A stretch of 23,937 nucleotides of DNA, from positions 1 through 23,937 of the IMG/VR virus record IMGVR_UViG_3300028372_000046; one strand, 5' to 3'. The position numbers were made by a program, and so were the translations under genes. Position 1 is the first letter of the stretch. Each line of letters starts with the position of its first letter. Below, piece after piece: positions 1,996 through 21,517 of the stretch. The notes under the pieces were generated by a model. It was not told the origin of the DNA. It made no database searches and worked only from the letters and a program-made list of their open reading frames with translations. This DNA comes from a virus.

Positions 1996-2003
1996 TTTTT
2001 TTT
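1996..2003 (+). terminator. Poly-T terminator after the SprT-like gene
   Basis: A run of eight T residues begins 20 nt after the stop codon at 1975. Archaeal RNA polymerase terminates at such T-tracts without needing a hairpin. It separates the SprT-like transcript from the following non-coding region. Confidence 0.55.
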
Positions 2004-2033: not shown

Positions 2034-2044
2034 GATTTATAACG
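2034..2044 (+). promoter_or_regulatory. TATA box candidate for the non-coding RNA region
   Basis: GATTTATAACG lies just beyond the poly-T terminator and predicts transcription starting near 2065, immediately before the hairpin-rich segment. No large plus-strand ORF follows, which fits a promoter for an RNA gene. Confidence 0.4.
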
Positions 2045-2064
2045 CTATAATTCCTACGGATGTA

Positions 2065-2430
2065 TGTGAGGGGGCGACCGCTCATTGACCAATTGAATGT
2101 GGTCTGGCACGCGACGTGAAAGCGTGTAACAACAAACAAATCCACAATCGAGCGCAGCTTACAGACATTGGCGGAAAAAGCAAGCAGGGCAAGTGCGTGC
2201 GATCCACATAGGAACTTTTCAAGTTCCTTTTCAGTACCGGCCTTCGTCGGAATAAGAGGGCCGACGTAAAACAAGGGGGCGAGCGGGAAGGGCAATTCCC
2301 GCTCCACACCATCTTTCAGTACCCCGTTGCAGGGAAACTTGCGAGGGGATAGGGTGACGTTATCACTCGTGGTGAACTAATCACTCACCGTTCAACCACA
2401 CTAAGGCGGACTAATCACCCGCCGCCTTTG
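2065..2430 (+). ncRNA. Candidate structured non-coding RNA, about 370 nt, class unknown
   Basis: The gene-free stretch 1976-2488 contains an unusual density of perfect or near-perfect stems. They are: CACGC/GCGTG (2108-2112 with 2122-2126); a 10-bp stem with one A-G mismatch and one G-U pair (2147-2156 with 2194-2203); AGGAACTT/AAGTTCCT with a 3-nt loop (2210-2228); CGTCGG/CCGACG (2245-2266), which competes with CGGCC/GGCCG (2238-2242 with 2259-2263); GAGCGGGAA/TTCCCGCTC with a 6-nt loop (2281-2304); CCCC/GGGG around 2322-2347; GGTGA/TCACC (2371-2389); and AAGGCGG/CCGCCTT (2403-2428). The last two have nearly identical loops (ACTAATCAC). A TATA box at 2034 and the next gene's promoter at 2454 bracket it. 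I do not recognise tRNA, RNase P, SRP RNA or a group I intron core. Strand is inferred from the promoter. Confidence 0.55.
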
Positions 2431-2453
2431 AAACAAAGTACTATTAGATAAAT

Positions 2454-2470
2454 TTATAAGCTTATAGAAC
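2454..2470 (+). promoter_or_regulatory. Promoter with palindromic TATA element (TATAAGCTTATA)
   Basis: TTATAAGCTTATAGAAC contains a perfect 12-bp palindrome at 2455-2466. Its TATA portion lies about 30 nt before the ATG at 2489, predicting a leader of a few nucleotides. The same 17 bases recur at 2719-2735, so both small genes are probably regulated alike. Confidence 0.6.
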
Positions 2471-2745: not shown

Positions 2746-3222
2746 ATGAGGTTGGTTAAAATGAACGCACGTATCTTTCACACGGTGTACAGCGACGATG
2801 AAGACGGCAAAGAAGCACGGTTCCTGCGCTCGGACGTTCAATTCGATGACCGTATCCCAACGCAGGAAGATTTCGATTCGCTGTACGAGGAAGCAGGAAT
2901 CGAGGAATTCGAATCGGATGATCACGGTGAGATCTTGAACAAAGTGTGGTCGCACTGGAACGCGGGAAGCGGTAATGAATCAGTCGAATTCGCCCGCCGA
3001 GAATGTGAAGATTGTGACGAAGTCTTCACCGGAGAGGTCGATGGCGAAGTCGATCTGCGCGTTCGTCAGAACAACGCCGAAGCTCACGAAAACGAAACCC
3101 GCCACGAAGTCGGTCACGGAACCCGCTCACTGTCGGTTGCGGATATCGTTGTGATCGAAGACACGGCATACCTATGCGTGTCCTTCGGGTGGGACGAGAT
3201 CGACGTTGAGGCCGAAGCATGA
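2746..3222 (+). CDS. Accessory protein with a C-terminal YodL-like motif (158 residues)
   Basis: The reading frame begins MRLVKMNARIFHTVY; the second Met (ATG at 2761) is a credible alternative start because GAGGT sits 7 nt before it. The N-terminal 70 residues are acidic and include a hydrophobic-aromatic patch (EILNKVWSHWN). A CEDC pair at about 87-90 could be half of a zinc site. The C-terminal stretch (about 127-152) reads TRSLSVADIVVIEDTAYLCV followed by SFGWDEI. This resembles the S-V-x-D-V...A-Y...G-F signature at the end of YodL/DUF4316-like proteins found on mobile elements. Function is unknown. The stop overlaps the start of the next ORF (ATGA). Confidence 0.65.
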   Translation: MRLVKMNARIFHTVYSDDEDGKEARFLRSDVQFDDRIPTQEDFDSLYEEAGIEEFESDDHGEILNKVWSHWNAGSGNESVEFARRECEDCDEVFTGEVDGEVDLRVRQNNAEAHENETRHEVGHGTRSLSVADIVVIEDTAYLCVSFGWDEIDVEAEA

Positions 3223-6074: not shown

Positions 6075-6102
6075 CTATAGAAATTATAGGATTATAAGTC
6101 TT
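6075..6102 (-). promoter_or_regulatory. thyX promoter with a CTATA-N5-TATAG dyad
   Basis: On the minus strand CTTATAAT (6098 to 6091) lies about 28 nt before the thyX ATG at 6067, giving a nearly leaderless mRNA. Between them is the inverted repeat CTATA gaaat TATAG (6075-6089), well placed to act as an operator. Confidence 0.5.
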
Positions 6103-7015: not shown

Positions 7016-7075
7016 TTATAGTTCTATAATCTTATTAAGCTTTTAGGCAAAAGTAATAAGCTATAGCACCTAAAA
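7014..7075. repeat. Three inverted repeats, two interlocked as in an H-type pseudoknot
   Basis: GATTATA/TATAATC (7014-7020 with 7025-7031, 4-nt spacer) begins within the TerS stop codon. CTTATTA (7031-7037) pairs with TAATAAG (7054-7060), and TTTTAGG (7041-7047), inside that loop, pairs with CCTAAAA (7069-7075). All are perfect 7-bp arms. The order a-b-a'-b' fits a pseudoknot in RNA or overlapping operators in DNA. The region lies between TerS and TerL, where packaging sites are often found. Confidence 0.5.
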
Positions 7076-8686: not shown

Positions 8687-10765
8687 ATGGTAAATCTCAA
8701 ATCACCCGTCAGAAAAGCAAAGCAGTCATTCGAAAATGGCGTTGTAAGAGTACTTCAAAAGTTCGGCTATCCTTCTGCGGCTGGCGGTATGGGTGGGCAT
8801 AGTTCCGCACCAGAACCCCCTTACGAGCGTAGTATCTCCCCGAAGTGGATCTACGAAATGCGACAGAAGCAGGCTCTTGTAAACAACGCAATCGAAGAGA
8901 AGGTCAATCAGACCTTCCGCCGTGGCTTCGCAGAGTGGGAAAAAGAGTACGTTGCCAAATGCAACGAGTGCCATGAGGAATTCGATACCTACGAACCATT
9001 CCGACAGCAACTCGGTGAAGCCGGGGATGATCTCGAAGAAGAGGATTTCGATTTCGACAAGAAACGAGTGTGTCCGGAGTGCGACGAAATGTGTGAATTC
9101 GATGCACCCGACGCACTCGAAAAGAAACGCGCTCAGAAATTCGTCGATGAGATCAACGAGCGAGGGCGTGCTGATCAGTTCCTTGACGGGGATGAACAGA
9201 ATTCGGTGGGTCAGACGTTCCTCGAAGTGTGTAAGGAAGTCGCATGGGATATTCAGTCCTTCGATGACGGCTGGATGATCTTCGAACGTGACTACATTCT
9301 GAACAACCACGGCGAGATCATCGATTGGGATTTGACCGGTGTCAGTCGCGCTCCCCCTGAACTAATGCGGTACTCGGTTGATCAGGAGGGCAACATGGGT
9401 GAGAAGTGGTGGATCTGTCCGGCGTGTAGAGCGACCGATGAACACTACCACCCACAGCAAGATGGCCAAAAGTGCGATAGCTGTGGGAATCAGACCTACC
9501 GTGCATACGCGGAACAAGTCGAAGCTCCGGGTGGAGATGCTGAAGAATTCTTCATCCGTGGGGAATTCACACACGCCAGCGAATACGAACCATCGAAGTT
9601 CTACGGCCTTAGTCCGATCATCACGCTGTGGGAAGAGTGTCGGACTCTTGAACAGATGGACAAGTGGTATCAGACAGCCTACGAACAACGCCGCGCTCCA
9701 CGTGGAGCTATGATCATCCGATCTACCAACGCGGAATCGGTTCGATCATGGAACACCGGCCAGTTCGAGAAGCTGAAGGATGACCCACACCACATCCCGA
9801 CGTTCATTGATGATACCGAAGGCTCTGGCCAGCCGTTGACGTGGCAACCGCTACTCGAAGATCCAGCGCAGATGCAACATATGCAGATGCGAGAGTGGTT
9901 CCTTGACCGTATCTCGGCTAAGTACGGTGTAACCTCTGTCTTCCAGAAAGCGTCCCCACAGAATTCGGGGCTTTCACAGTCGATGGAGATTATCGTTTCC
10001 AATCGCTCTGCACATCGACTAAAGACTGTCTTCGAAGACTCGTTCATCCCGGCTATGTTGAGCCAGCTTCAGGTCGAAGGATGGGACTTGTCCATTGCCG
10101 AGATCGAAGAGGAAGACGAAAACGCCGAAGCAGAACGAATCGGCAAGGAGCTTAAAAACGCTCAACTCGCCCAACAGGTTGGTGCAGATGTTGAGTGGAC
10201 TACTGCCAATGACGCCGATATCAAAGCCGGTATCCTCGAATCACCTGAACAAGAGGGCGGTATGATGGGTGGCATGGGTGGTATGGGTGGCGAACCAGAG
10301 GGCGGTGATGGGGGTGGCAGTCCGTTCGATGAAGTCATGGCGGGACAGACCGGGCCTGAAGGTGGACGGCCACCAGAGGCCAACACGGTCGGTGGAGAGC
10401 CAGCCAGCCCTGATGAACCGACACAGGGCAATGAAATCGCATACTCCGATGGCGCAGGTACACATAACGCTACCTATGGTGGCGCACGTGGTGGAGTCAT
10501 CAACATCTTCGATCATATCCAGTCCCAAATGAATGATGGGAACGCGGATATGCAGAAGCGGCTTCTGAGTCAAGCGAAGGTCGCCTACGACTCGAACTTC
10601 GAACACTTAGGAATGAACGGTGACACCATCGAAGAGTACGCCAAAGACGATGGCAAATCGTTCTCTGATCTCTGTGAAGACCACTACGGAAAGTGGCTCA
10701 AAACGAATCAGGGACGTGGCTCTACGGAATATCTCTATGAGTTGATGGGTGGCAACCCTCAATGA
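8687..10765 (+). CDS. Portal protein with zinc-ribbon-like insertions
   Basis: The protein has 692 residues. The core (about 300-515) resembles tailed-virus portals: EYEPSKFYGLSPIITLWEEC, a clip/stem-like helical stretch around 320-345, and AKYGVTSVFQKASPQNSGLS with SQSMEIIVSNRSAHRLKTVF at 431-450. Portals form the dodecameric DNA channel where TerL docks. Unusually, two Cys pairs occur at C92/C95 and C129/C132, and another set at C244/C247 and C263/C266, suggesting two zinc ribbons inserted in the N-terminal half. A Gly/Met-rich segment (about 523-545) and a helical tail (605-690) follow. The start is fixed by close spacing to TerL, and the stop overlaps the next gene (ATGA at 10762). Confidence 0.82.
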   Translation: MVNLKSPVRKAKQSFENGVVRVLQKFGYPSAAGGMGGHSSAPEPPYERSISPKWIYEMRQKQALVNNAIEEKVNQTFRRGFAEWEKEYVAKCNECHEEFDTYEPFRQQLGEAGDDLEEEDFDFDKKRVCPECDEMCEFDAPDALEKKRAQKFVDEINERGRADQFLDGDEQNSVGQTFLEVCKEVAWDIQSFDDGWMIFERDYILNNHGEIIDWDLTGVSRAPPELMRYSVDQEGNMGEKWWICPACRATDEHYHPQQDGQKCDSCGNQTYRAYAEQVEAPGGDAEEFFIRGEFTHASEYEPSKFYGLSPIITLWEECRTLEQMDKWYQTAYEQRRAPRGAMIIRSTNAESVRSWNTGQFEKLKDDPHHIPTFIDDTEGSGQPLTWQPLLEDPAQMQHMQMREWFLDRISAKYGVTSVFQKASPQNSGLSQSMEIIVSNRSAHRLKTVFEDSFIPAMLSQLQVEGWDLSIAEIEEEDENAEAERIGKELKNAQLAQQVGADVEWTTANDADIKAGILESPEQEGGMMGGMGGMGGEPEGGDGGGSPFDEVMAGQTGPEGGRPPEANTVGGEPASPDEPTQGNEIAYSDGAGTHNATYGGARGGVINIFDHIQSQMNDGNADMQKRLLSQAKVAYDSNFEHLGMNGDTIEEYAKDDGKSFSDLCEDHYGKWLKTNQGRGSTEYLYELMGGNPQ

Positions 10766-12552
10766 GTGATATGGATATCGGGCGGTTCGCCGCACTTGCA
10801 AGCGAAACTCCGGACCCAACAGTGGAGACAGTTGAGGGAGATCAATACAAAATCGTAGATACCCCTAATACAGATACCAACAAAGGTAATACAGATACCA
10901 ACAAAGGTAAAATCGAAATGAAAGAAGAACTACTGAACGAGGTTGTCGGTGTTGCAAAGAAGTTCGCCAAAGAACGGACTTATATCAGAGATCCTTCGGA
11001 AGCTCCCGAAGGTGCTGATGTAGAGGAAGGGCCACAAGGAGGGTATTACTACGAAGAAGCGATTTCTCCGGATGACGGAAGTAGCCCGAATTCAGAAGAC
11101 GGTGAGACCGAAGGCGAACGTCTCCAAACTGCACTAAACGAGCAAGGTGTCAGTGAAGAAGATCAGCAGCAGCTACTCGAAGAGTTGCAAGAAGTTGCAG
11201 ATGAAGGGTTCGACCCGACTTCGATTCTCCAACCACTCCTACAGATGGGATACGACTACGAAACCGCGAATTCGGTTACGGAGGTAGTCTTCGGAAAGGA
11301 TTTTAGCAAGCGGACCTACGTGAGTAACCCATCGGATGCACCACCCGGTGTCGATCTCCACGAAGGTCCGCAAGGTGGAACCTACTACGAGGAAGAAGGT
11401 AGTAATAGCCCATCCGAAGACTCCCGTGAAGAGGGGAGACCGCAGGAAGAAAAACCGGAAGAAGAAGCTGAATCCAACGGGCGTGAAGAGAACCGAGAAG
11501 TCAAAATCGCAGAGCCGGAAGACTTCGCCAGCACTGTTTCAAACTTCATCGAAGAAGAGCCTGAAATGGGCGCGTTTCTCACTGCACACACTCCCGAAGA
11601 ACTGGAAGACCATACGCTCATCACCACGGATGGAGGTGGCGCGGGGGTCTCTGTGAGTCCCGATGGGGATATTCAGAACTTGTTCAACCACACCGGTCCC
11701 AAAGGAATCGGTGAAGAACTGTTGGACAAGGCTATCGCAGAAGGCGGGCGCACGTTGGACTGTTACAACGGCTACCTTCGAAAGCTGTACAAAGACCACG
11801 GATTCAAGGAGGGTGGACGGATGGAATTCAACCCCGATTACGCACCGGATGGGTGGGATTTCGAAAAGTACGAGACGCCAGACGTAGTGTTTATGTACTA
11901 CGACCCTGAAGAAGAATACACAGTTTCAGACCAATATTATGAGCCAGACCAATGGGGAGACGCCAAAGAGGACGCCAGAGGAAGAGCAGATTTTGGACGA
12001 AATGAAGGAGGAAGAGAGCGAGGAATGGGTGGAGGCGAACGCGGCGATGATTCTAAATCAAGCTCGTCTCGTAGGCGATTTGTAGCCGGAGACGAGATCA
12101 AAGAGAAAATCGCCAACTCGGTCACGGTCTCTTCACTGACTACTAAACAAGAAGACTGGTTAGACTCTTACGCCGCTGAATTCCCACTCTACAAGTCCGA
12201 CTGGCAAGATGATACCCCTGATCGAATTTCGGTTAAATGGGGCGGAATCCCGGTTGGCTTTGCCGAGATCCGAGACGAAGATCTCTTCACGGGGTACAAC
12301 GGGAAAAACCAGCTACTCGAACGCCTCCTTCGGGCCATGTCTACGCGGAAGTGGGCCGAAGATGAAGGCAACGAATACGACTCCGGCATTCTCTCTATCG
12401 AAGAACACGCCGAGATCGGATCCGAAGAGCGAATGGAAGAGCTTGTGTTGGTGCTGGCAGATCTACCGGGTGTGACCGTCGAACGCGGGGTTCCATCCGA
12501 GAAGTCGAAAATCATGCTTGACACCCAACAATTACTCCAACGACACCAGTAA
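10762..12552 (+). CDS. Modular virion-associated protein with GNAT-like acetyltransferase domain
   Basis: The protein has 596 residues and overlaps the portal stop by ATGA. Layout: a short N-terminal region with a 7-residue tandem repeat (NTDTNKG twice, 36-49); a helix; shared module 1 (73-98, PSEAPEG then EGPQGGYYYEE); a helical segment with a UBA-like look (SILQPLLQMGYDYETANSVT, 154-173); shared module 2 (185-211, EGPQGGTYYE); an acidic linker; a GNAT-like domain (about 249-380) with AGVSVSPDGDIQNLFNHTG, GIGEELLDKAI, TLDCYNGYLRKLYKDHGF and PDVVFMYY; a Gly/Arg-rich linker; and an unassigned C-terminal domain (440-596). GNAT enzymes transfer acetyl groups from acetyl-CoA. Position beside the portal suggests a structural or packaged protein. 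The target is unknown. Confidence 0.65.
   Translation: MSDMDIGRFAALASETPDPTVETVEGDQYKIVDTPNTDTNKGNTDTNKGKIEMKEELLNEVVGVAKKFAKERTYIRDPSEAPEGADVEEGPQGGYYYEEAISPDDGSSPNSEDGETEGERLQTALNEQGVSEEDQQQLLEELQEVADEGFDPTSILQPLLQMGYDYETANSVTEVVFGKDFSKRTYVSNPSDAPPGVDLHEGPQGGTYYEEEGSNSPSEDSREEGRPQEEKPEEEAESNGREENREVKIAEPEDFASTVSNFIEEEPEMGAFLTAHTPEELEDHTLITTDGGGAGVSVSPDGDIQNLFNHTGPKGIGEELLDKAIAEGGRTLDCYNGYLRKLYKDHGFKEGGRMEFNPDYAPDGWDFEKYETPDVVFMYYDPEEEYTVSDQYYEPDQWGDAKEDARGRADFGRNEGGRERGMGGGERGDDSKSSSSRRRFVAGDEIKEKIANSVTVSSLTTKQEDWLDSYAAEFPLYKSDWQDDTPDRISVKWGGIPVGFAEIRDEDLFTGYNGKNQLLERLLRAMSTRKWAEDEGNEYDSGILSIEEHAEIGSEERMEELVLVLADLPGVTVERGVPSEKSKIMLDTQQLLQRHQ
10867..10908 (+). repeat. Perfect 21-bp tandem duplication, in frame
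   Basis: Two identical 21-bp units (10867-10887 and 10888-10908) encode NTDTNKG twice. They lie next to GATACCCCTAAT at 10858. The exact identity indicates recent slippage or strong constraint. Confidence 0.9.
10978..11055 (+). repeat. Shared EGPQGG module, copy 1 (GNAT-like protein)
   Basis: Residues 73-98 read TYIRDPSEAPEGADVEEGPQ followed by GGYYYEE. This is the long subtype of the module that recurs in six neighbouring proteins. Bases 11029-11058 match 18588-18617 at 29 of 30 positions. Confidence 0.8.
11314..11394 (+). repeat. Shared EGPQGG module, copy 2 (GNAT-like protein)
   Basis: Residues 185-211 read RTYVSNPSDAPPGVDLHEGP followed by QGGTYYEE. Long subtype. Confidence 0.8.
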
Positions 12553-12553
12553 T

Positions 12554-14215
12554 ATGGATATCAAAGAGAGTATTGCGAAGGCTGCTTCTGAAGTCATCAA
12601 AGAATGGATTCCTTACGAGGGGCCGCAGGGTGGGCAAGGATGGCAACACTCGGAAAGCGATGAAGTCGTTTATCAGGAAGAGAAACCGGGTACAGGTGAG
12701 AGTGGCGAAGAATCCAGTGATACGGATATTGCGCTCACTGCTGGCGACCCCCGTGTACGTGTAGACACCCCCGAAGAAGCTGTTCAAGCTCTCGCAGACT
12801 TCGATGAGAGTGATTATAAATACGACTATTGGGAAGGAGATGGAGAGGTTTCAGTCGGTTCTATCGTTGAAATCCCGACTGACGTATTCCAACTACAGGG
12901 AGATGGTGACACCGCTATCGTTGTCGAAGCTGATAAAGAGTCCGGTGGATATCGGGTTATGACAGAAGACGGTGTTGGCTACGAATTCACCCCGGAGGTT
13001 ATGGGATTCGATGAGACTGGCGAAGGCGAAACGTCTATGCTCGGTGTATGGGATGACCCCGCCAATCAAGTAGCAACTGGTGAGAGTGAGTGGAGCGACT
13101 TTTCGGATGACGCTATTCCCAACGAAGTCAAAGAAGCGTTGGGTGAAACAGAATCCGAGGAAACGGAGGAAGAACCCGAAGAATCGCAAGGAGATCCTGA
13201 TTGGTTCGAGTCTATTGATTTCGAATCCTATTCGAGTGATAACGGTCTGTTCTCCGGTGGGAAATATTCGTTCCGGGGTGAGGTAATCACGCTGGATGAA
13301 GCGGGGGAAGCCCGTGGTGTTCAGTACTTCGATTCCGAAGGAGTCCATAACACGTTTGCCGAGATTGATGGAGTCGCCACAACTGTCTCGGAACAGTCAT
13401 CGGTTGATACAGGTACTATCCGCAATATCCATTTCTCGGAAGATACAGATATGGAAGACGGGTGGTATCGAATCGGTGATGATACCCGTGTTGAAGACGG
13501 TGGTGACTCGATTTTCGTAGAGTTTGAGGATCAGAACGGCAATATCACGGAAATCGATGCTGTCGAAGTCGAACGGGAACAGTTGATTGATCGTAAACAC
13601 ATCCCTGCTGAAATCGGGGATGCGACCCCGTCGATGGAAAAGCCGTGGGAGAACTACGAGCGTGAGTATCCAGAGAAGCCGGATCTCCCGGATCATCTCA
13701 ATACGGGTAATATCACTGAAGAAAACGGATACACCGCAGAATCGATCAAGTCGATCAACAGTGGGTTGGGGCGTGTTGCCGATCTCGGCCTTGACAGGCA
13801 GATTTCGAGTATAGAGGTGCTGGATGAAGAGGGGACGTTGGGGCGATTCGACCCGAACACAGATCAGGTTCTCCTGAACCCCCGGCAGATGAATCAAGAG
13901 CAACTGGATGATCTTTCGGAAAACTTCTCTGTAGGTGAGACAGTTGAAGATCTCGTTGTTCACGAAGCCATGCACGCGGCACACGTAGAAGCACTACTCG
14001 AAGATGGATGGTCGGCCGATGAAATATTCGATGAACTGCTAAACAAGCCGCTGAACGAATCCGAGAAGGAGATCATGGAGCGGGATGTGTCTACCTACGG
14101 CGCAAGTAACGCACTCGAAGTTGTCGCTGAAGTGGGATTAGCAATCACTATGGGGAAAGAGGTATCAGATGAAGCATTGTTTATCTACGAAAAGTATGGA
14201 GGGCCTGAACTATGA
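12554..14215 (+). CDS. Modular protein with C-terminal HEAMH zinc metallopeptidase domain
   Basis: I chose the ATG at 12554, two bases after the previous stop, over an upstream ATG at 12518, because it gives MDIKESIAKAASEVIKEW, like the N-terminus of its neighbour. That gives 553 residues. The shared module in its short subtype is at 17-42 (WIPYEGPQGGQGWQ...VVYQEE). Two or three beta-rich segments and acidic linkers follow. The C-terminal ~170 residues look like a gluzincin: VVHEAMHAAHVEAL with HEAMH at 470-474, and a downstream NALEVVAEVGLAI helix offering E522 or E526 as third zinc ligand. Possible roles are head maturation or cleavage of a host protein. The stop overlaps the next ATG. Confidence 0.65.
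   Translation: MDIKESIAKAASEVIKEWIPYEGPQGGQGWQHSESDEVVYQEEKPGTGESGEESSDTDIALTAGDPRVRVDTPEEAVQALADFDESDYKYDYWEGDGEVSVGSIVEIPTDVFQLQGDGDTAIVVEADKESGGYRVMTEDGVGYEFTPEVMGFDETGEGETSMLGVWDDPANQVATGESEWSDFSDDAIPNEVKEALGETESEETEEEPEESQGDPDWFESIDFESYSSDNGLFSGGKYSFRGEVITLDEAGEARGVQYFDSEGVHNTFAEIDGVATTVSEQSSVDTGTIRNIHFSEDTDMEDGWYRIGDDTRVEDGGDSIFVEFEDQNGNITEIDAVEVEREQLIDRKHIPAEIGDATPSMEKPWENYEREYPEKPDLPDHLNTGNITEENGYTAESIKSINSGLGRVADLGLDRQISSIEVLDEEGTLGRFDPNTDQVLLNPRQMNQEQLDDLSENFSVGETVEDLVVHEAMHAAHVEALLEDGWSADEIFDELLNKPLNESEKEIMERDVSTYGASNALEVVAEVGLAITMGKEVSDEALFIYEKYGGPEL
12602..12679 (+). repeat. Shared module, copy 3, short subtype (zincin protein)
   Basis: Residues 17-42 carry EWIPYEGPQGGQGWQ and then EVVYQE. 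This is the tryptophan-containing short subtype, placed near the N-terminus. Confidence 0.7.
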
Positions 14216-16179
14216 GTAATGAAAAAAGCATAATCGAAGCGACAGAAAAGGCCATGTTCGAATCGTTTGAAACATGGCTTTCGGACATGGAAGACAACAC
14301 CGAGAAGACCGAGAAAGATTGGGTTCCGTATGTCGGTCCCCGTGGGGGTGAGGGGTGGAGAAGTACCAACGCCCAATCGGTTCGCTACCAACCAAACAAA
14401 CCGACTGCTGAAGACGATGATCATGATCCGAACGATGTAGATCAAGAAGCCGTAGACGATGCTGGTATCCATCAGACGCGGCTGTGGGAACCCACACAGG
14501 CCGATGATCTACAGGTCGGATACAAGGTCCGAAGCAATCAGGAGGAACACGAATGGAACGGGCGTGTTACCGAGATCTTAGACGATGAGATCGTTTTCGA
14601 GACTGAAAGCTGGCGTGAGATCCGGGTTCCCACAGACGAAAACGGGGTTCCGGAAGAAGATCTCCAACGACCGAAGACAGTTTTCTTTGGGACGGGTATC
14701 GCCAACGTCGATTATTCGTTCCTACCAGAAAACGGAGAGGCGACCGAGACGCAGATTCAGGCCGAAGCAGTACGTTCGGCCACAACTGGTGATGGAATCG
14801 GTGAGACGAAGCCGCTGGAAGCCTTCATCGGTCTCGCACTGGCGCGGGGAGAAGACGAATCCACGGTGAGTGAGGCAGTCGATCTCGCTATCGATAAACA
14901 CCCGTATCTCTACGAGCGTGACAAAGATGATATCATGGCCAACGGACGGGCCATCGTCGAAGAACACGACGCCGAACGCCTGAAATCCATCCATAAAGAT
15001 TATATGGATAAGGGATGGGTTCGTTACGAGGGGCCACGCGGTGGGATGGGGTGGCAGAACAGCGAAACCGGTGATGTGGTCTACAGCGAAGAAGCCCCCG
15101 GTGAAGTCGAAGAAGGGGCCGAAGATCAAACACAGACCACGCTTGATACGGGTACTGACGCCGAGATCAACATCAAAGAGCCGAAGTGGATGGATGACAG
15201 TGTAGCCCGTGTCGCTGTTTACAGATCTCTCCCCGAAGAGGCGTATCACGGAATCGTAGAAGAATCCGATATCGGCAGTGAGTGGAGTATGTCGGCTGAT
15301 GAATGGATAGACGGTGCGAAAGAATGGATCGAAGCCAACGGTGATGAGAACGATATAAAGGAATTGCAGGAGTATCTGGATCAATACGACAAGAATGCTC
15401 CGTGGACGGCATATTCCGAAGAAATCACTGCACCGGATAACATGAATCCTGAAAAATCGGAGGAAATGAAAGCATTCAACGAGATGGGTATCAGCGGCGG
15501 GATTAGTGCTGAATCCATGTGGGTCGCTGATATGGGGCCGAATGACCGCCGCCTGTTCATCACAAATGTCAACGACAGGGTTGGCTCAAGCGAAGATGAA
15601 TACGAAATGAGAGCGGCTGAACAATCCTCTAAGTTCCTTGAAGCTTTTGGTCTCACGGTTCCGGAACATCACTACGAGGAAGGCGAATTCTTAGCTGTAG
15701 CCGAAGCAGAAGGAACTCCTGTAGGAGATCTTTTGGACCGTGTAGATATGGACAAATACGATTACTTAGAGCATTCACTGGCTACACTCATGATCGGTAA
15801 TAGGGATGCTCACGAACAGAACGTCTTCCTCAATCGCACCTACAGTGGGTACGAACTGACCACCATCGATCTCGATCTCGCTGGAACGGATCTCACAGAT
15901 CAAAGAAGTTCCATCGAAAACACTCTCGGACAGCTCTTCGAAGCGTCTGTTAAACTCGACCTGTACGAACCATACGACGACGATGATATCCAACGGTTCA
16001 AGCAGGATATCATCTCTTATGTTGAAGGATGGTTCGAGTACAACGACGCTTCTGAAATGTTGGAGAGTGTCGATGACGAAGAAATGCGTGAGGTGTTCGA
16101 AACGAATATTAACGCATTGAAAAGCGGTGAACTAATTAGTGATGACACTGTAGTTACGTCAATGTACTCACTGCCCTGA
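14212..16179 (+). CDS. Modular protein with C-terminal HipA/APH-like kinase domain
   Basis: The protein has 655 residues; its ATG overlaps the upstream stop. Short-subtype modules occur at 36-60 (WVPYVGPRGGEGWR) and 268-292 (WVRYEGPRGGMGWQ). A small beta module lies at about 99-140 (DLQVGYKVRSN). The C-terminal domain (about 400-640) has a kinase-type catalytic loop, IGNRDAHEQN (528-537, D532 and N537), and a metal-binding TIDLDLAG (551-558). These match the D-x-H-x-x-N...D pattern of HipA, APH and phosphoinositide-kinase-like folds. A glycine-rich ATP loop is not obvious. The same domain occurs in the gene at 19532. The predicted activity is phosphorylation of an unknown substrate. The next gene starts 8 nt after the stop. 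Confidence 0.65.
   Translation: MSNEKSIIEATEKAMFESFETWLSDMEDNTEKTEKDWVPYVGPRGGEGWRSTNAQSVRYQPNKPTAEDDDHDPNDVDQEAVDDAGIHQTRLWEPTQADDLQVGYKVRSNQEEHEWNGRVTEILDDEIVFETESWREIRVPTDENGVPEEDLQRPKTVFFGTGIANVDYSFLPENGEATETQIQAEAVRSATTGDGIGETKPLEAFIGLALARGEDESTVSEAVDLAIDKHPYLYERDKDDIMANGRAIVEEHDAERLKSIHKDYMDKGWVRYEGPRGGMGWQNSETGDVVYSEEAPGEVEEGAEDQTQTTLDTGTDAEINIKEPKWMDDSVARVAVYRSLPEEAYHGIVEESDIGSEWSMSADEWIDGAKEWIEANGDENDIKELQEYLDQYDKNAPWTAYSEEITAPDNMNPEKSEEMKAFNEMGISGGISAESMWVADMGPNDRRLFITNVNDRVGSSEDEYEMRAAEQSSKFLEAFGLTVPEHHYEEGEFLAVAEAEGTPVGDLLDRVDMDKYDYLEHSLATLMIGNRDAHEQNVFLNRTYSGYELTTIDLDLAGTDLTDQRSSIENTLGQLFEASVKLDLYEPYDDDDIQRFKQDIISYVEGWFEYNDASEMLESVDDEEMREVFETNINALKSGELISDDTVVTSMYSLP
14317..14391 (+). 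repeat. Shared module, copy 4, short subtype (kinase-like protein)
   Basis: Residues 36-60: DWVPYVGPRGGEGWRSTNAQ, then SVRYQ. Confidence 0.7.
15013..15087 (+). repeat. Shared module, copy 5, short subtype (kinase-like protein)
   Basis: Residues 268-292: GWVRYEGPRGGMGWQNSETG, then DVVYS. Placed between the helical middle region and the kinase-like domain. Confidence 0.7.
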
Positions 16180-16187
16180 TCGTAGTT

Positions 16188-19100
16188 ATGATTACAATTT
16201 ACAAATTAAAAGACGATTCGCTTGAATTCGAACCCATCGGACAGATCGAAAATGGCGAAATTGTCGATGGTGGGGATGCTCTCGAACAACTGGTTCCAGA
16301 GAAACTTCGAGGGGACGAAAAAGAGCTTCTAAATCGGTTTGATGGACCGAGATATCTGGCTTCGAGTACCGAGTACGGCAACAAAAAGGAGAAGGGTGGT
16401 TCGGGGAACGGCTACTGTGAGGTAGACGGCGAACAGCTTGAGATCAGAGACTACTATCGGGTATGGGTCAAATCCGAATCGGACGTACCCGAAGGGCGGA
16501 CAGCCCACCGTGGAGACGAAACAGCCCCCGTTGATAACAAGTACTACTACGAAGTTCCATTCCAAACATCGACCGTCATTGATGTAGGGAAATTTGACAA
16601 AATGCGGGTTGATCCGACCGACCACCCATCCCGACAAGATCTGGTTGATATGGGTATTCCAGATCCGGATCTATCTCTCACGAAGTCGAACGGCGAAGTC
16701 TCACTGAACCCCGCCGAGTACCGAGAAGCCGAATCGCCACTCACTCTGTTTCACCTGTACAAAAAACTCTACGATCAGGGCAGTGAGTACACCAGCTACC
16801 TTTCGATACTGAAGCGTGAATTAAATAATAGGGGTATTCTCTCGTTCGAACGGATAGCGAAATCTCGGCTGGTTCGTAAAGACGAAGGTGGGTGGACAGA
16901 AGAAACTGGCCCCCGTGGTGCGACTCGGTGGCGCAGAGGTGATGAGATCCGCTACAAGCCCCCCGCAGGAGCATCCGAGAGTGATGAATCGTCTACTACC
17001 TCTACCGAGGAAAGCCCCGCAGAAGAGACACACGACCCATACAATCGCCCTGTTGAGACGACAACTTCACCCGTTGGTGAGTTGGAGGCCGAGGATTTCG
17101 CCGGAACGACGTTCCGATTCTACGATGACGATAACAACCCTGTTGAAGATCTCACCGTTGTAGACGTGGTGAACAACCCTACGACGCTAATGGGGCCGAA
17201 TGCCGGGTACGTTGAATTCGAAGATGGGACATACGCAACACTCACTGGAAACGACTACGCAGATCTGTTTTCAGACGACGATACAGTACGAGCGTTCACC
17301 GATTCCGAAGCTGTTGTTCAACGGGAAGTCTATCAGGAACCTACCGGAGAACCGAATCCCGATGGGTGGGATATTCAGTGGGAAGTTGAGAACGAAGATC
17401 GAGATCTTGATCGGCTCAACGACCGCGAGAAAGAGCAATTCCTAAAAGAGTGGCACGCTGCTTCGCCTGAAGGTGGTTTCGAAGATATCGAAGACGCCTT
17501 CTATCAGATCAAAGCCGTGACCACTTCGACCGGTGGCCAACTGCTTGATAAGGCTATGCAAGCAGCGCATGGTATCGCTGGTGAACCACGAACCGATGAA
17601 CACATGGATGATCGTGACTTCGAAGATTCGGATGATCCAACCGAAGCCGAAGTCGAAGCCGCGAGAGTCTTCACCAAAGCGTCTCAAAAGTTCATGCAGG
17701 AGAACTTCGGGGACGAATTCACGCTTCACCGTGGGTTGGGGAACCACGTTGTCGAACCGCTCTACGATACACTGTTAGATCGGTTTGCCGAGGGTTCGAC
17801 TGATGATCTCGTAATCAAAGATAACCCTGTCGCCACGTGGACCACTGATCAGCAAATGGCCAATAGCTACGATAAGGGTATTGTCGCCAGAAAGCAGTTC
17901 GAAGTCGGTGATGTGCTATCGACTCCCGAAGCACTGCTTGATATGGAAGGCGACGTTCGGGCCATGACTGACTACAGTGAAGGTGAGACCAACGTCGCTG
18001 GATGGGATATGTCCGTAGATCCGGGTGACTTATACGTATCAAAAACTAATGTTACATTCAGAGAATTGATGGAAGACCCCGTAGCGGCACACCTACGAGA
18101 CATTGAGGATGAAGACAGTGGGACAAAGACGACGGCGTTGCACAGTTTCATTACTCACATCCGACACCGGGACAAACCTGAAGCCGCCAAAGCACTCCGG
18201 CGTAAGCTGGAAGCATCCGACGTGTATCAGGAGAATCCCGATCTCTTCGATTCGATTCCAAAGCAACTCGAAGTTATGTTGGATAAAAATGATACAGTGG
18301 GCGACGATACGAGCGGGCGTGACGTGATAGATATCCGTTCAGATGCAGATTGGCTTGTCGAATCACGTGATGAGCGAACCGAGAAGGGACGCCGCTATGT
18401 TACCTCCTCCGACGAAGCCCCCGAAGGTGTGGATGTTGAGGAAGGCCCACAGGGTGGTCTCTACTACGATACGGGTACTGGCGACAGTAGGACGGAACCA
18501 CAGAAGATCTCCATTGGGAAGATAGCGAAGAATCCCAACTACGTCAATGATCCGTCTGAAGCTCCTGAATGGGCCACTGTGCAAGAGGGGCCACAAGGAG
18601 GGTACTACTACGAAGAAAGCCAAAAACCATCGGAGAGCGACGACGACAGCCGTGAGTCGCCTTCTGCTGATGACCTGATCTCGGAGATCGGATTGGGGAG
18701 TCTGGATGAAGTTGGAGAAGTCATCTCCCGTGGGATTGTTGAAGGGGTCGATCTCGCAGAGTTGGGCGACAGAATTGCCGATGAGAAAAGCGGGCGATAC
18801 ATTAATCGGGTACTCGGAGATGTTGAGCAAGCTGTCTCAAAGCAGATCGATGGCTACGAGAATCCAGTCAAGATGACCTACAGTTGGGACGATGACTTCG
18901 ATTTCCCCGACAAAGCCCAACAGAAGTTCATGGAATCGGTTGACGAAGAAACCGGTCAACTGGCGAAACAGGCCATGGAGACGTGGCCGCTTGATTTCTT
19001 CTCGGAGGATATGGCCCCGCTATGGAAAACTGTCATGGCGGAAACCGGGAACACGAATCTCCTGAAAGACGAAGAGCAAGTCACCGAGACCGAGGTTTCC

Positions 19101-19535
19101 GATGCTCAAATGGACGCGGTGAGAGCGTACAAGCAACACACCGAGGATACACTTCGAGAGATCCACGGCGATAGTATCACTGTCTACCGTGGTGTCTACG
19201 GGGATGCAGGTCACTCCCTGATCGAAGCCGCCGAAGCGGGTGAAGAGATCGAATGGGAACGCCGGGCGGTCGAATCCTACACGACTGAACTGACCTACGC
19301 TAAATCGTATGCTCAAAACCCCGGTGGAGTTGTCGTTGAACAGGAAATACCTGTTGAAGATGTGTGGGCTTCATCTCACACAGGCTTCTTAGATGCAAAC
19401 GAGAACGAACTGGTGGTTCAAAAGGAATCGGTGGAGACGATATCTCCCGATAATATCCATACTCCGGAAACGCTTGATGACGGATCATGGAACATCGAAG
19501 AAGTTGGCGAGCAAGCACGGAGGTTCCAACAATGA
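16188..19535 (+). CDS. Giant modular protein with two ADP-ribosyltransferase domains
   Basis: The protein has 1115 residues. An N-terminal ~60-residue domain (MITIYKLKDDSLEFEPIGQI ... RFDGPRYLAS) is duplicated as the stand-alone gene at 20479. A degenerate short module lies at 232-256 (GPRGATRWRR). A beta-rich segment (300-355) precedes ART domain 1 (about 485-625): HRG with R515, TWTTDQQMANSY (550-561) and EGE at 598-600. Two long-subtype modules follow at 736-761 and 783-811. ART domain 2 is at about 960-1090: VYRG with R1001, ESYTTELTYAKSY (1029-1041) and ENE at 1072-1074. This is the R-S-E (arginine-type) ART pattern, which uses NAD+ to ADP-ribosylate targets. T4 Alt is a packaged, injected ART, so a similar role is plausible here but unproven. 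Confidence 0.72.
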   Translation: MITIYKLKDDSLEFEPIGQIENGEIVDGGDALEQLVPEKLRGDEKELLNRFDGPRYLASSTEYGNKKEKGGSGNGYCEVDGEQLEIRDYYRVWVKSESDVPEGRTAHRGDETAPVDNKYYYEVPFQTSTVIDVGKFDKMRVDPTDHPSRQDLVDMGIPDPDLSLTKSNGEVSLNPAEYREAESPLTLFHLYKKLYDQGSEYTSYLSILKRELNNRGILSFERIAKSRLVRKDEGGWTEETGPRGATRWRRGDEIRYKPPAGASESDESSTTSTEESPAEETHDPYNRPVETTTSPVGELEAEDFAGTTFRFYDDDNNPVEDLTVVDVVNNPTTLMGPNAGYVEFEDGTYATLTGNDYADLFSDDDTVRAFTDSEAVVQREVYQEPTGEPNPDGWDIQWEVENEDRDLDRLNDREKEQFLKEWHAASPEGGFEDIEDAFYQIKAVTTSTGGQLLDKAMQAAHGIAGEPRTDEHMDDRDFEDSDDPTEAEVEAARVFTKASQKFMQENFGDEFTLHRGLGNHVVEPLYDTLLDRFAEGSTDDLVIKDNPVATWTTDQQMANSYDKGIVARKQFEVGDVLSTPEALLDMEGDVRAMTDYSEGETNVAGWDMSVDPGDLYVSKTNVTFRELMEDPVAAHLRDIEDEDSGTKTTALHSFITHIRHRDKPEAAKALRRKLEASDVYQENPDLFDSIPKQLEVMLDKNDTVGDDTSGRDVIDIRSDADWLVESRDERTEKGRRYVTSSDEAPEGVDVEEGPQGGLYYDTGTGDSRTEPQKISIGKIAKNPNYVNDPSEAPEWATVQEGPQGGYYYEESQKPSESDDDSRESPSADDLISEIGLGSLDEVGEVISRGIVEGVDLAELGDRIADEKSGRYINRVLGDVEQAVSKQIDGYENPVKMTYSWDDDFDFPDKAQQKFMESVDEETGQLAKQAMETWPLDFFSEDMAPLWKTVMAETGNTNLLKDEEQVTETEVSDAQMDAVRAYKQHTEDTLREIHGDSITVYRGVYGDAGHSLIEAAEAGEEIEWERRAVESYTTELTYAKSYAQNPGGVVVEQEIPVEDVWASSHTGFLDANENELVVQKESVETISPDNIHTPETLDDGSWNIEEVGEQARRFQQ
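16881..16955 (+). repeat. Shared module, copy 6, degenerate short form
   Basis: Residues 232-256 of the ART protein: GGWTEETGPRGATRWRRGDE, then IRY. It keeps GPRG, a Trp and a terminal Tyr but lacks the second GG. Confidence 0.5.
18393..18470 (+). repeat. Shared module, copy 7, long subtype (between ART domains)
   Basis: Residues 736-761: RYVTSSDEAPEGVDVEEGPQ, then GGLYYD. Confidence 0.8.
18534..18620 (+). repeat. Shared module, copy 8, long subtype (between ART domains)
   Basis: Residues 783-811: PNYVNDPSEAPEWATVQEGP, then QGGYYYEES. Bases 18588-18617 match 11029-11058 in 29 of 30 positions. Confidence 0.8.
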
Positions 19536-20482
19536 CAGAGCGAATCAAACTCGAAGATACAGACCCTCGTTGGAGATATGAAGAGGAATCAGAGGATACT
19601 GTTGGAAAGCAGATCTTCGATCTCCTGCACAAAAAGAGACGGTACGTACAAAGCCCTGATGAAGCCCCTGATGGCGTTTCGGTTGAAGAGGGACCACAGG
19701 GCGGACTGTACTACGAAACCGAGCAAAATCGATTGGAGACCCCATTCGAGATCGATGATAACGCACCGGATTACCTGAATCCGAGTTTGGCAAACGAACT
19801 GAAAACGTTCGAAGATATGGGTATCAGAGGCGGGAAAGCGGCTGATTCAATGGCAATCGCTCAGTTCGATGGTAGTAAAGCGTTTATCCGAGCAGTCGGG
19901 GACAGTGGGTCACGGGATGAAACATCCCCGGTTGAAGATGCAGAAAACGCCATGACAGCTTACACCATACTGTCCGAACTGAACAGCGAGAACGTCCCTG
20001 AACACTACTACAACGAGGGTGAATGGATGGGCAGTGTCGGCGTCGAAGGAACGAATCTCTACAAAGCAGACGATGAGTTGATCGAAAAGATCGACAGAGA
20101 GGAAGCACTGGATCTCATGAGTACACTGGTACTGATAGGCGAATCCGATATGCACGGCGACAACTTGATTGTCGATTCGGAGGGGAAACCCCATGTATTC
20201 GATTTCGATGACTCCACAACAGATCTCACTGGTAGAGGTGAGAACAGAGTCATTCAGGGGATGATCCACACGCTTCGAGAAATGGATATCGAAGCCGACG
20301 AAGACGCCGAAGGATACACTGATAAAGCGAAGTTGGGGGCGACTGTCAAGCAGAGAGCATACCAGAAAGCACAAAATATGAGCGACGAAGAAATCGAATC
20401 GATACTCAGCAAGATACCATACGAAGAACAGCGCGAGCGGATACAGGGGAACATCAAATTCCTCCGTGGGGGTGGAGAATGA
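19532..20482 (+). CDS. Second HipA/APH-like kinase-domain protein with shared module
   Basis: I chose the ATG at 19532 because it overlaps the ART gene stop (ATGA); an upstream ATG at 19487 would add 15 residues inside that gene. That gives 316 residues. Long-subtype module at 37-62 (RRYVQSPDEAPDGVSVEEGP). Residues 80-316 parallel the kinase-like domain of the 14212 protein: FEDMGIRGGKAADSM versus FNEMGISGGISAESM, VPEHYYNEGE versus VPEHHYEEGE, then IGESDMHGDN (202-211) as catalytic loop and VFDFDD (222-227) as metal motif. It is a compact paralogue without the long N-terminal region. Phosphotransfer activity is predicted; the substrate is unknown. An alternative reading is a regulator or antagonist of its larger paralogue. 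Confidence 0.68.
   Translation: MTERIKLEDTDPRWRYEEESEDTVGKQIFDLLHKKRRYVQSPDEAPDGVSVEEGPQGGLYYETEQNRLETPFEIDDNAPDYLNPSLANELKTFEDMGIRGGKAADSMAIAQFDGSKAFIRAVGDSGSRDETSPVEDAENAMTAYTILSELNSENVPEHYYNEGEWMGSVGVEGTNLYKADDELIEKIDREEALDLMSTLVLIGESDMHGDNLIVDSEGKPHVFDFDDSTTDLTGRGENRVIQGMIHTLREMDIEADEDAEGYTDKAKLGATVKQRAYQKAQNMSDEEIESILSKIPYEEQRERIQGNIKFLRGGGE
19640..19717 (+). repeat. Shared module, copy 9, long subtype (second kinase-like protein)
   Basis: Residues 37-62: RYVQSPDEAPDGVSVEEGPQ, then GGLYYE. Confidence 0.8.
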
Positions 20483-20706
20483 TCATTTGTCTATACGAAC
20501 TGGAAGGTATGGAGTACGAGCTAATCGCTGTCATTCGAAACGGTGAGGTGAATTCAGAAGCCCCGTACATCGATAACATATTCAGAGGTATCGATCTGGA
20601 TGACGAAGAGTACATTTTGGATCATTTCAACGGCCCGCAACTGGTAGCATCCCCACTCGGAAATATTAGTGGAGAAGACAAATATCAGTGGAGAAGACAA
20701 AAGTGA
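20479..20706 (+). CDS. Stand-alone copy of the ART protein N-terminal domain, C-terminus altered by a 19-bp duplication
   Basis: This 75-residue protein starts in ATGA overlap with the preceding gene. MIICLYELEGMEYELIAVIR, NGEV and HFNGPQLVAS align with the first ~60 residues of the 1115-residue ART protein (ITIYKLKDD, IGQIENGEI, RFDGPRYLAS). Near its end a 19-bp tandem duplication (20661-20698) shifts the frame, so it now ends SGEDKYQWRRQK. Without one unit it would continue SGEDKSEKTRDEEGDI and stop at 20737, three bases before the next start codon. The domain has no recognised function. A role as cofactor, adaptor or immunity-like partner of the ART protein is possible. Confidence 0.6.
   Translation: MIICLYELEGMEYELIAVIRNGEVNSEAPYIDNIFRGIDLDDEEYILDHFNGPQLVASPLGNISGEDKYQWRRQK
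20661..20701 (+). repeat. 19-bp imperfect tandem duplication causing a frameshift
   Basis: AAATATTAGTGGAGAAGAC (20661-20679) is followed directly by AAATATCAGTGGAGAAGAC (20680-20698), one mismatch in 19, and then AAA. The period of 19 is not a multiple of three, so it changes the frame of the gene's last codons. Confidence 0.88.
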
Positions 20707-20740
20707 AAAGACACGGGATGAAGAAGGTGACATATAAACA

Positions 20741-21517
20741 ATGACTGATAAAAAACCACAGGTTATCGATCTGTCGAAGTCGGACGACGAAGAGGGTGGG
20801 TCTCAAAACGTTGCTGATGAAGCCGCTGAACACTATCCAGAATCCGTTGGGGATGGTGAGAACAACGAAGGCGGGACCGGTGATGTGTACCACGAAGCCC
20901 GCGAGAACGCCGAAAACGAGGGCGACAGTGAGAACGAGGATGGCACTGGCAACGTCTTCCATGAGGCACGTGAGAACCGAGAAGACGAAGATGAAGACGG
21001 CGAGACGGCTAAGGCATTCGAACTGAAGAACTTCGATCTCTCACACCGCTTCGATCAAGAAAAGAGCTTCAACGATCTCAAGTCCGGCGACGTGGTCCTG
21101 ATCGATACCCCACTTCACGGTGGGAAGATTGGGGAAGTCACTGGCAAAGAAGACGCATGGACCGGGACGCTTCACGTGAAAGTCGATACAGGGGCCAACG
21201 AGTACGATATCACTCCGTACAACGATGATTACTCCGAGAAATACGTCGGCTGTATCTCGGAAGAAGGGTCGCTTTCGAGTGAGATCCTGTCTCAACTCGG
21301 CAAAACCAGCATCGACAAACTCGAAGTCGGCAACCAGATCATTCTGGATGTACCACGGTGTGGTCCTGTTCGTGGAACTGTTTCGAACAAAACTGACACC
21401 GAGACACAGGGGACAAAAATCGCTGTCTCAACTGGCCCTGCTACGTTCTCGGTATACGAAGAACCGAGTCCGGCGCAGAAAAAAGAGCAAGCAATTATTG
21501 TTGGACAGGTTCAGTAG
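20741..21517 (+). CDS. Acidic protein with two beta-barrel-like modules and an internal HEAREN repeat
   Basis: The protein has 258 residues. The N-terminal 95 residues are an acidic, probably disordered region with a 12-residue repeat: GTGDVYHEAREN (45-56) and GTGNVFHEAREN (68-79), perhaps a weaker third copy at NVADEAAEHY (23-32). Two similar beta-rich modules follow, at about 112-165 (DLKSGDVVLIDTPLHGGKIG) and 193-240 (KLEVGNQIILDVPRCGPVRG). They resemble the modules in the 14212 and 21524 proteins (DLQVGYKV, DLESGQKILI). They look like small SH3/KOW-type barrels and could mediate assembly contacts. No catalytic motif is seen. It precedes the MuF gene by 6 nt, so a structural or scaffolding role fits best. 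Confidence 0.55.
   Translation: MTDKKPQVIDLSKSDDEEGGSQNVADEAAEHYPESVGDGENNEGGTGDVYHEARENAENEGDSENEDGTGNVFHEARENREDEDEDGETAKAFELKNFDLSHRFDQEKSFNDLKSGDVVLIDTPLHGGKIGEVTGKEDAWTGTLHVKVDTGANEYDITPYNDDYSEKYVGCISEEGSLSSEILSQLGKTSIDKLEVGNQIILDVPRCGPVRGTVSNKTDTETQGTKIAVSTGPATFSVYEEPSPAQKKEQAIIVGQVQ

Follow-up and report, generated by a model that had tools for sequence, protein, structure and literature searches.

A conserved hairpin-rich intergenic element in a Druskaviridae-related viral contig: a candidate structured non-coding RNA

Structured non-coding RNAs of archaeal viruses have hardly been described so far, and no structured RNA family from a halovirus was found in the open full-text literature as judged from titles and abstracts. 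Sponge RNAs of the CsrB type carry repeated hairpins that present the same loop. The ROOL and GOLLD RNAs of phages are virus-encoded, elaborately structured non-coding RNAs whose function is not known; one ROOL example measures 659 nt, GOLLD RNAs often exceed 800 nt, and both are often located near tRNA islands (PMC12286853). RNA anti-CRISPRs (Racrs) are small non-coding viral RNAs encoded downstream of a promoter and mimic CRISPR repeats (PMC10651486), while TIGR arrays, virus-encoded RNAs in which stem-loops recur, have been reported from archaeal viruses as well (PMC12045711).

The element analyzed here resembles ROOL and GOLLD in being a virus-encoded, elaborately structured candidate RNA without an assigned function, but it spans only about 260 nt, has no Rfam match, and lies in a sequence in which ARAGORN detected no tRNA or tmRNA gene. 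Like the Racrs it would be a viral RNA that is small, non-coding and placed behind a promoter, whereas no similarity to CRISPR repeats was found. It shares repeated stem-loops with TIGR arrays, but it has no spacer array, and none of the scanned ORFs encodes a Nop-domain protein. Its 3' part recalls the CsrB-type sponges by repeating hairpins with the same loop, yet it differs from them in having only two clear copies, another loop and a partner that is only putative.

A core shared with a second contig and a 3' block specific to the window

The window (the whole stretch of DNA analyzed, 23,937 bases) is a contig from a virus with relatives in the family Druskaviridae; the Haloarcula tailed viruses HCTV-1, HCTV-5, HCTV-16 and HVTV-1 of that family share about 56% identity with it in the large terminase. 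The region of interest is flanked by a SprT-like gene (911-1975, Pfam PF10263) on one side and by a pair of small accessory genes, at 2489-2701 and 2746-3222, on the other.

The region 2065-2430 was structured beyond chance. A first-pass annotation had described at least seven stems packed there, and a count of perfect stems that do not overlap gave seven with 5 bp or more, where dinucleotide shuffles predict 2.4 (p 0.003), and three with 7 bp or more, where they predict 0.15. The 9-bp hairpin at 2281-2304 and the 8-bp hairpin with a 3-nt loop at 2210-2228 were found exactly as claimed. The comparison of minimum free energy with shuffled sequence that the annotation had proposed gave a z score of -4.18 on the plus strand versus -1.83 on the minus strand, and the lowest z (-5.8) among 476 segments of 200 nt from both strands of the contig was that of 2201-2400 on the plus strand.

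A second viral contig, L005 (IMGVR_UViG_3300000361_000040), matched positions 1997-2324 at 79% identity. The match ended at 2324, beyond which neither the ACTAATCAC hairpins nor ORF 2489-2701 are present in L005; a homologue of ORF 2746 comes next there. The interval 2065-2430, taken as one unit in the first-pass annotation, consists of two parts, a core that is conserved (2064-2324) and a hairpin block specific to the window (2325-2430); the expectation that stems be preserved in homologous sequences held for the core, one pair excepted, and failed for the block, which is absent from L005. The core comprises the following features:

2064-2324, plus strand: conserved core of the putative non-coding RNA, about 260 nt, homologous to L005 67-292
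2066-2085, plus strand: hairpin H1 with a GCGA (GNRA) loop; the L005 stem has 8 bp, that of the window contains one G-G mismatch
2087-2104, plus strand: hairpin H2, GACC/GGTC stem conserved, loop variable
2107-2127, plus strand: hairpin H3, with compensated pair C2112-G2122 (T-A in L005)
2128-2149, plus strand: A-rich linker AACAACAAACAAATCCACAATC, mostly unpaired, identical at 22 of 22 positions
2150-2207, plus strand: variable arm, 26 nt shorter in L005, poorly conserved
2209-2280, plus strand: identical run of 72 nt, the longest shared between the window and L005 (the next is 56)
2210-2228, plus strand: hairpin H5, 8 bp, 3-nt loop, invariant
2238-2266, plus strand: hairpin H6, either 2238-2263 (8 bp) or 2245-2266 (6 bp), mutually exclusive, invariant
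2281-2304, plus strand: hairpin H7, 9 bp, with G-C (window) or A-U (L005) as the terminal pair

Window and L005 differed at only two of 96 nt over 2209-2304, and these differences (G2281A and C2304T) fall on either side of the terminal base pair of H7, so that they compensate each other; H3 contains the second compensated pair. The linkers at 2128-2149, 2229-2237 and 2264-2280 were invariant, and no antisense target of the linkers above shuffles was detected within the window. In the next gene, third codon positions differed at 31% between the two contigs. On this comparison the core is more conserved than the neighbouring genes and constrained at the nucleotide level. The homologue and covariation check suggested by the annotation thus yielded two compensated pairs and one broken pair, from a comparison of two sequences that carries no formal covariation statistic. 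Indels of 5, 1, 26 and 3 nt separate the two contigs.

Folding energy gave a less uniform picture. The core of the window, taken alone, was only moderately better than shuffled sequence (z of -2.31 on the plus and -1.93 on the minus strand); that of L005 folded well on both strands (-4.45 and -3.92), and L005 61-320 reached -5.07. Because the window's core alone folds less impressively, conservation and compensation weigh more than energy.

The block that follows the core contains these features:

2325-2443, plus strand: window-specific 3' hairpin block, containing both ACTAATCAC hairpins, absent from L005
2371-2389, plus strand: hairpin GGTGA-ACTAATCAC-TCACC, perfect 5-bp stem
2405-2423, plus strand: hairpin GGCGG-ACTAATCAC-CCGCC, perfect 5-bp stem

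The loops at 2376 and 2410, described earlier as nearly identical, are identical (ACTAATCAC both times), with no other occurrence in the window. Two perfect 5-bp hairpins sharing one 9-nt loop did not arise in any of 3000 shuffles of the block, and 2313-2460 folded with a z of -4.4. Two stem pairs differ between the copies, both compensated in that pairing register. Reading GTGA-N5-TCAC in the block as a DNA operator was rejected, as a third copy loses the palindrome and keeps the hairpin stem. An RNA hairpin may fit the block better than an operator, a preference that is only suggestive because energy minimization of 2369-2399 favours another stem, longer than this one, and leaves TAATCAC in the loop. 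The block was found in no other virus locus examined (the loci listed were cut from the window itself), and a pattern scan of viral contigs with the 3' hairpin gave no match.

Promoter motif and search for further members

Three features of the flanking sequence bear on transcription of the element:

1996-2003, plus strand: T8 run that follows the SprT-like gene 911-1975; contig L005 likewise begins with a T run
2037-2049, plus strand: TATA-type viral promoter motif TTATAACGCTATA, kept in L005 with one mismatch
2454-2466, plus strand: promoter motif of ORF 2489-2701, the same motif, separate from the RNA's own copy

The first two correspond to the poly-T and TATA box that had been noticed ahead of the region, and the T8 run is probably the terminator of the SprT-like gene. 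Allowing at most one mismatch, TTATAANNNTATA occurred 14 times in the window versus 0.4 expected, and it is found 27-35 nt ahead of the start codons of ORF 2746, ORF 2489 and ThyX. The element accordingly has its own copy of an enriched motif common to neighbouring genes, which is a motif and not a measured start. The T run and the promoter were conserved with L005, the bases just ahead of 2064 were not, and conservation resumed at ATGTGAG, 27 nt from the start of the motif at 2037. This copy predicts an RNA start at about A2064.

The motif is also present at 786, in the intergenic stretch 677-910 ahead of the SprT-like gene, a stretch that shares the string CATATGAGGTTG with the sequence preceding the ATG at 2761. 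TTATAAGCTTATAGAAC is common to the promoter regions of ORF 2489 (2454-2470) and ORF 2746 (2719-2735), as though the insertion of ORF 2489 had been accompanied by the duplication of one promoter. At several sites (6084-6097, 7016-7029) the motif is near-palindromic and could drive transcription in both directions.

The window had no match in Rfam (release 15) at gathering; in E-value mode (E up to 10) its best match was PinT (12.9 bits, E 8), which is not credible, and nothing credible was obtained for L005. Covariance models R1, R2 and R3 matched nothing in HVTV-1, HCTV-5, HCTV-1 and HCTV-16, and models of the whole element, the 3' domain and the 5' domain retrieved only the two known members from Druskaviridae and related contigs. 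Pattern scans of viral contigs with three core blocks each recovered L005. Ten other viral-contig matches to the A-rich linker pattern looked like chance; one of these ten, L027, was matched by model R1 (E 0.014) but had been pre-selected for the linker string. The pattern scan of genome contigs gave a Snodgrassella match, roughly what chance would yield (by our own estimate, about one). Searches of phages and plasmids by blastn returned nothing relevant, neighbour-gene searches for additional loci added no new member, and no third homologue of the core was found. The conserved core with its stems kept (one pair excepted), the two compensated pairs and the lack of an Rfam match support the earlier description as a structured viral RNA outside the known classes. 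The core would most aptly be called a new RNA family, one that has two members and no assigned function.

Possible roles of the element

The reading we prefer, which we hold to be about evenly balanced between right and wrong, is that of a viral non-coding RNA that stands alone, belongs to a family not yet described, has its own promoter and acts in trans as a scaffold or decoy; the first-pass annotation had named decoy, packaging RNA and regulator as candidate roles. The promoter motif points to transcription, which would run rightward from the element's own copy, starting near A2064. The transcript, with its presumed ends, would fold into hairpins joined by conserved single-stranded linkers and would act in trans during infection, binding a host or viral protein (or RNA) through the invariant hairpins H5-H7 and the linkers. 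The step from a structured RNA to a scaffold or decoy is suggested by this anatomy, because invariant hairpins and linkers are what a binding RNA would conserve. The 3' block would have been added in this virus, and since its loop is repeated, the two hairpins with the same TAATCAC loop sequence may offer extra docking sites.

More tentatively, the two loci could be the founding pair of a new archaeal-virus RNA family, an in-trans modular binding scaffold with lineage-specific add-on hairpins and a role like that of the ornate RNAs of bacterial phages. Being compact and better conserved than the genes around it, the element presents a concrete target for work in a halovirus system, and the modular 3' block a handle on its putative binding partner. 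Points against a stand-alone RNA are the broken pair of H1 in the window and the moderate folding of the core alone. In addition, no terminator-like site was detected near the 3' end of the core (2324) by a scan built for bacterial terminators, so transcription could run into the downstream gene.

The main and strongest rival, a long structured 5' leader (attenuator or switch), draws on this absence and on the fact that haloarchaeal genes can have long-leader transcripts: in Hfx. volcanii, some genes have a leaderless and a second, very long-leader transcript (PMC4983044). Transcription from 2064 would continue into ORF 2746 or ORF 2489, the structure controlling the gene. The two mutually exclusive stems of H6 would suit such a switch, and in L005 the ORF 2746 homologue follows within about 67 nt of the core homologue. 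However, ORF 2489 and ORF 2746 each have their own promoter motif 27-35 nt ahead of the start codon, and in the window ORF 2489 and the hairpin block separate the core from ORF 2746, so that the pairing of element and gene is not fixed. A leader is a serious possibility, though on the unlikely side.

Inverted repeats acting as DNA, in a cis-acting packaging, replication or recombination site, would pair on either strand, as the L005 core does when folded, but several observations make this improbable. The promoter motif lies directly upstream and conservation resumes at the predicted RNA start; the plus strand folds clearly better over 2065-2430, and G-U pairs and the GNRA loop occur on that strand only. 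Moreover, the terminase genes are 4-5 kb away and no turn in GC skew is seen at the site.

A protein-coding role is very improbable. The predicted RNA would open with AUG UGA, a start followed immediately by a stop, and open frames of 101 and 76 aa exist on the antisense strand. The longer one (2307-2002; 99 aa at L005 305-6) is open in both contigs with identical stretches near its start, and in L005 a promoter motif is found 25 nt upstream of its ATG. Nevertheless, the L005 start has no homologous counterpart in the window, and the 26-nt and 5-nt indels place the conserved blocks 2064-2090 and 2128-2177 in different frames. None of the 24 third positions of the 72-nt block has changed, compared to 31% in the next gene, an outcome that would be very unlikely if the block were coding (1.6e-4). 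The first-pass annotation had likewise seen no convincing protein.

Chance hairpins in an intergenic region free of structural constraint would explain the broken H1 pair and the poorly conserved variable arm (2150-2207), but this reading, already unlikely for the core, retains very little probability against the hairpin counts, the fold z scores, the conservation above coding genes and the compensated pairs. A solitary CRISPR-repeat mimic (RNA anti-CRISPR) has next to no likelihood: the element would be a short non-coding viral RNA behind a promoter and its TTTCAG string is reminiscent of a haloarchaeal repeat, but plus-strand alignment to haloarchaeal type I-B repeats, which may not be those of the host, scored no better than shuffled sequence. 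Three repeats, type I-B only, were tried; GTTTCAGACGAACCCTTGTGGGATTGAAGC was confirmed in haloarchaeal plasmids, and the other two we take to be haloarchaeal repeats of that type.

Other features of the contigs

Between the homologues of ORF 2746 and ORF 3553, L005 has additional small ORFs (1053-2490), so this stretch appears to be a variable accessory region. Farther along the window, six ORFs from 10762 to 21517 had no Pfam match. Between 10762 and 23935, past the portal gene, the translations of several consecutive ORFs repeat a motif like YVxxPSDAPEGVxVxEGPQGGxYYE within differing flanking sequence, as if it were a tag or processing site common to these ORFs.
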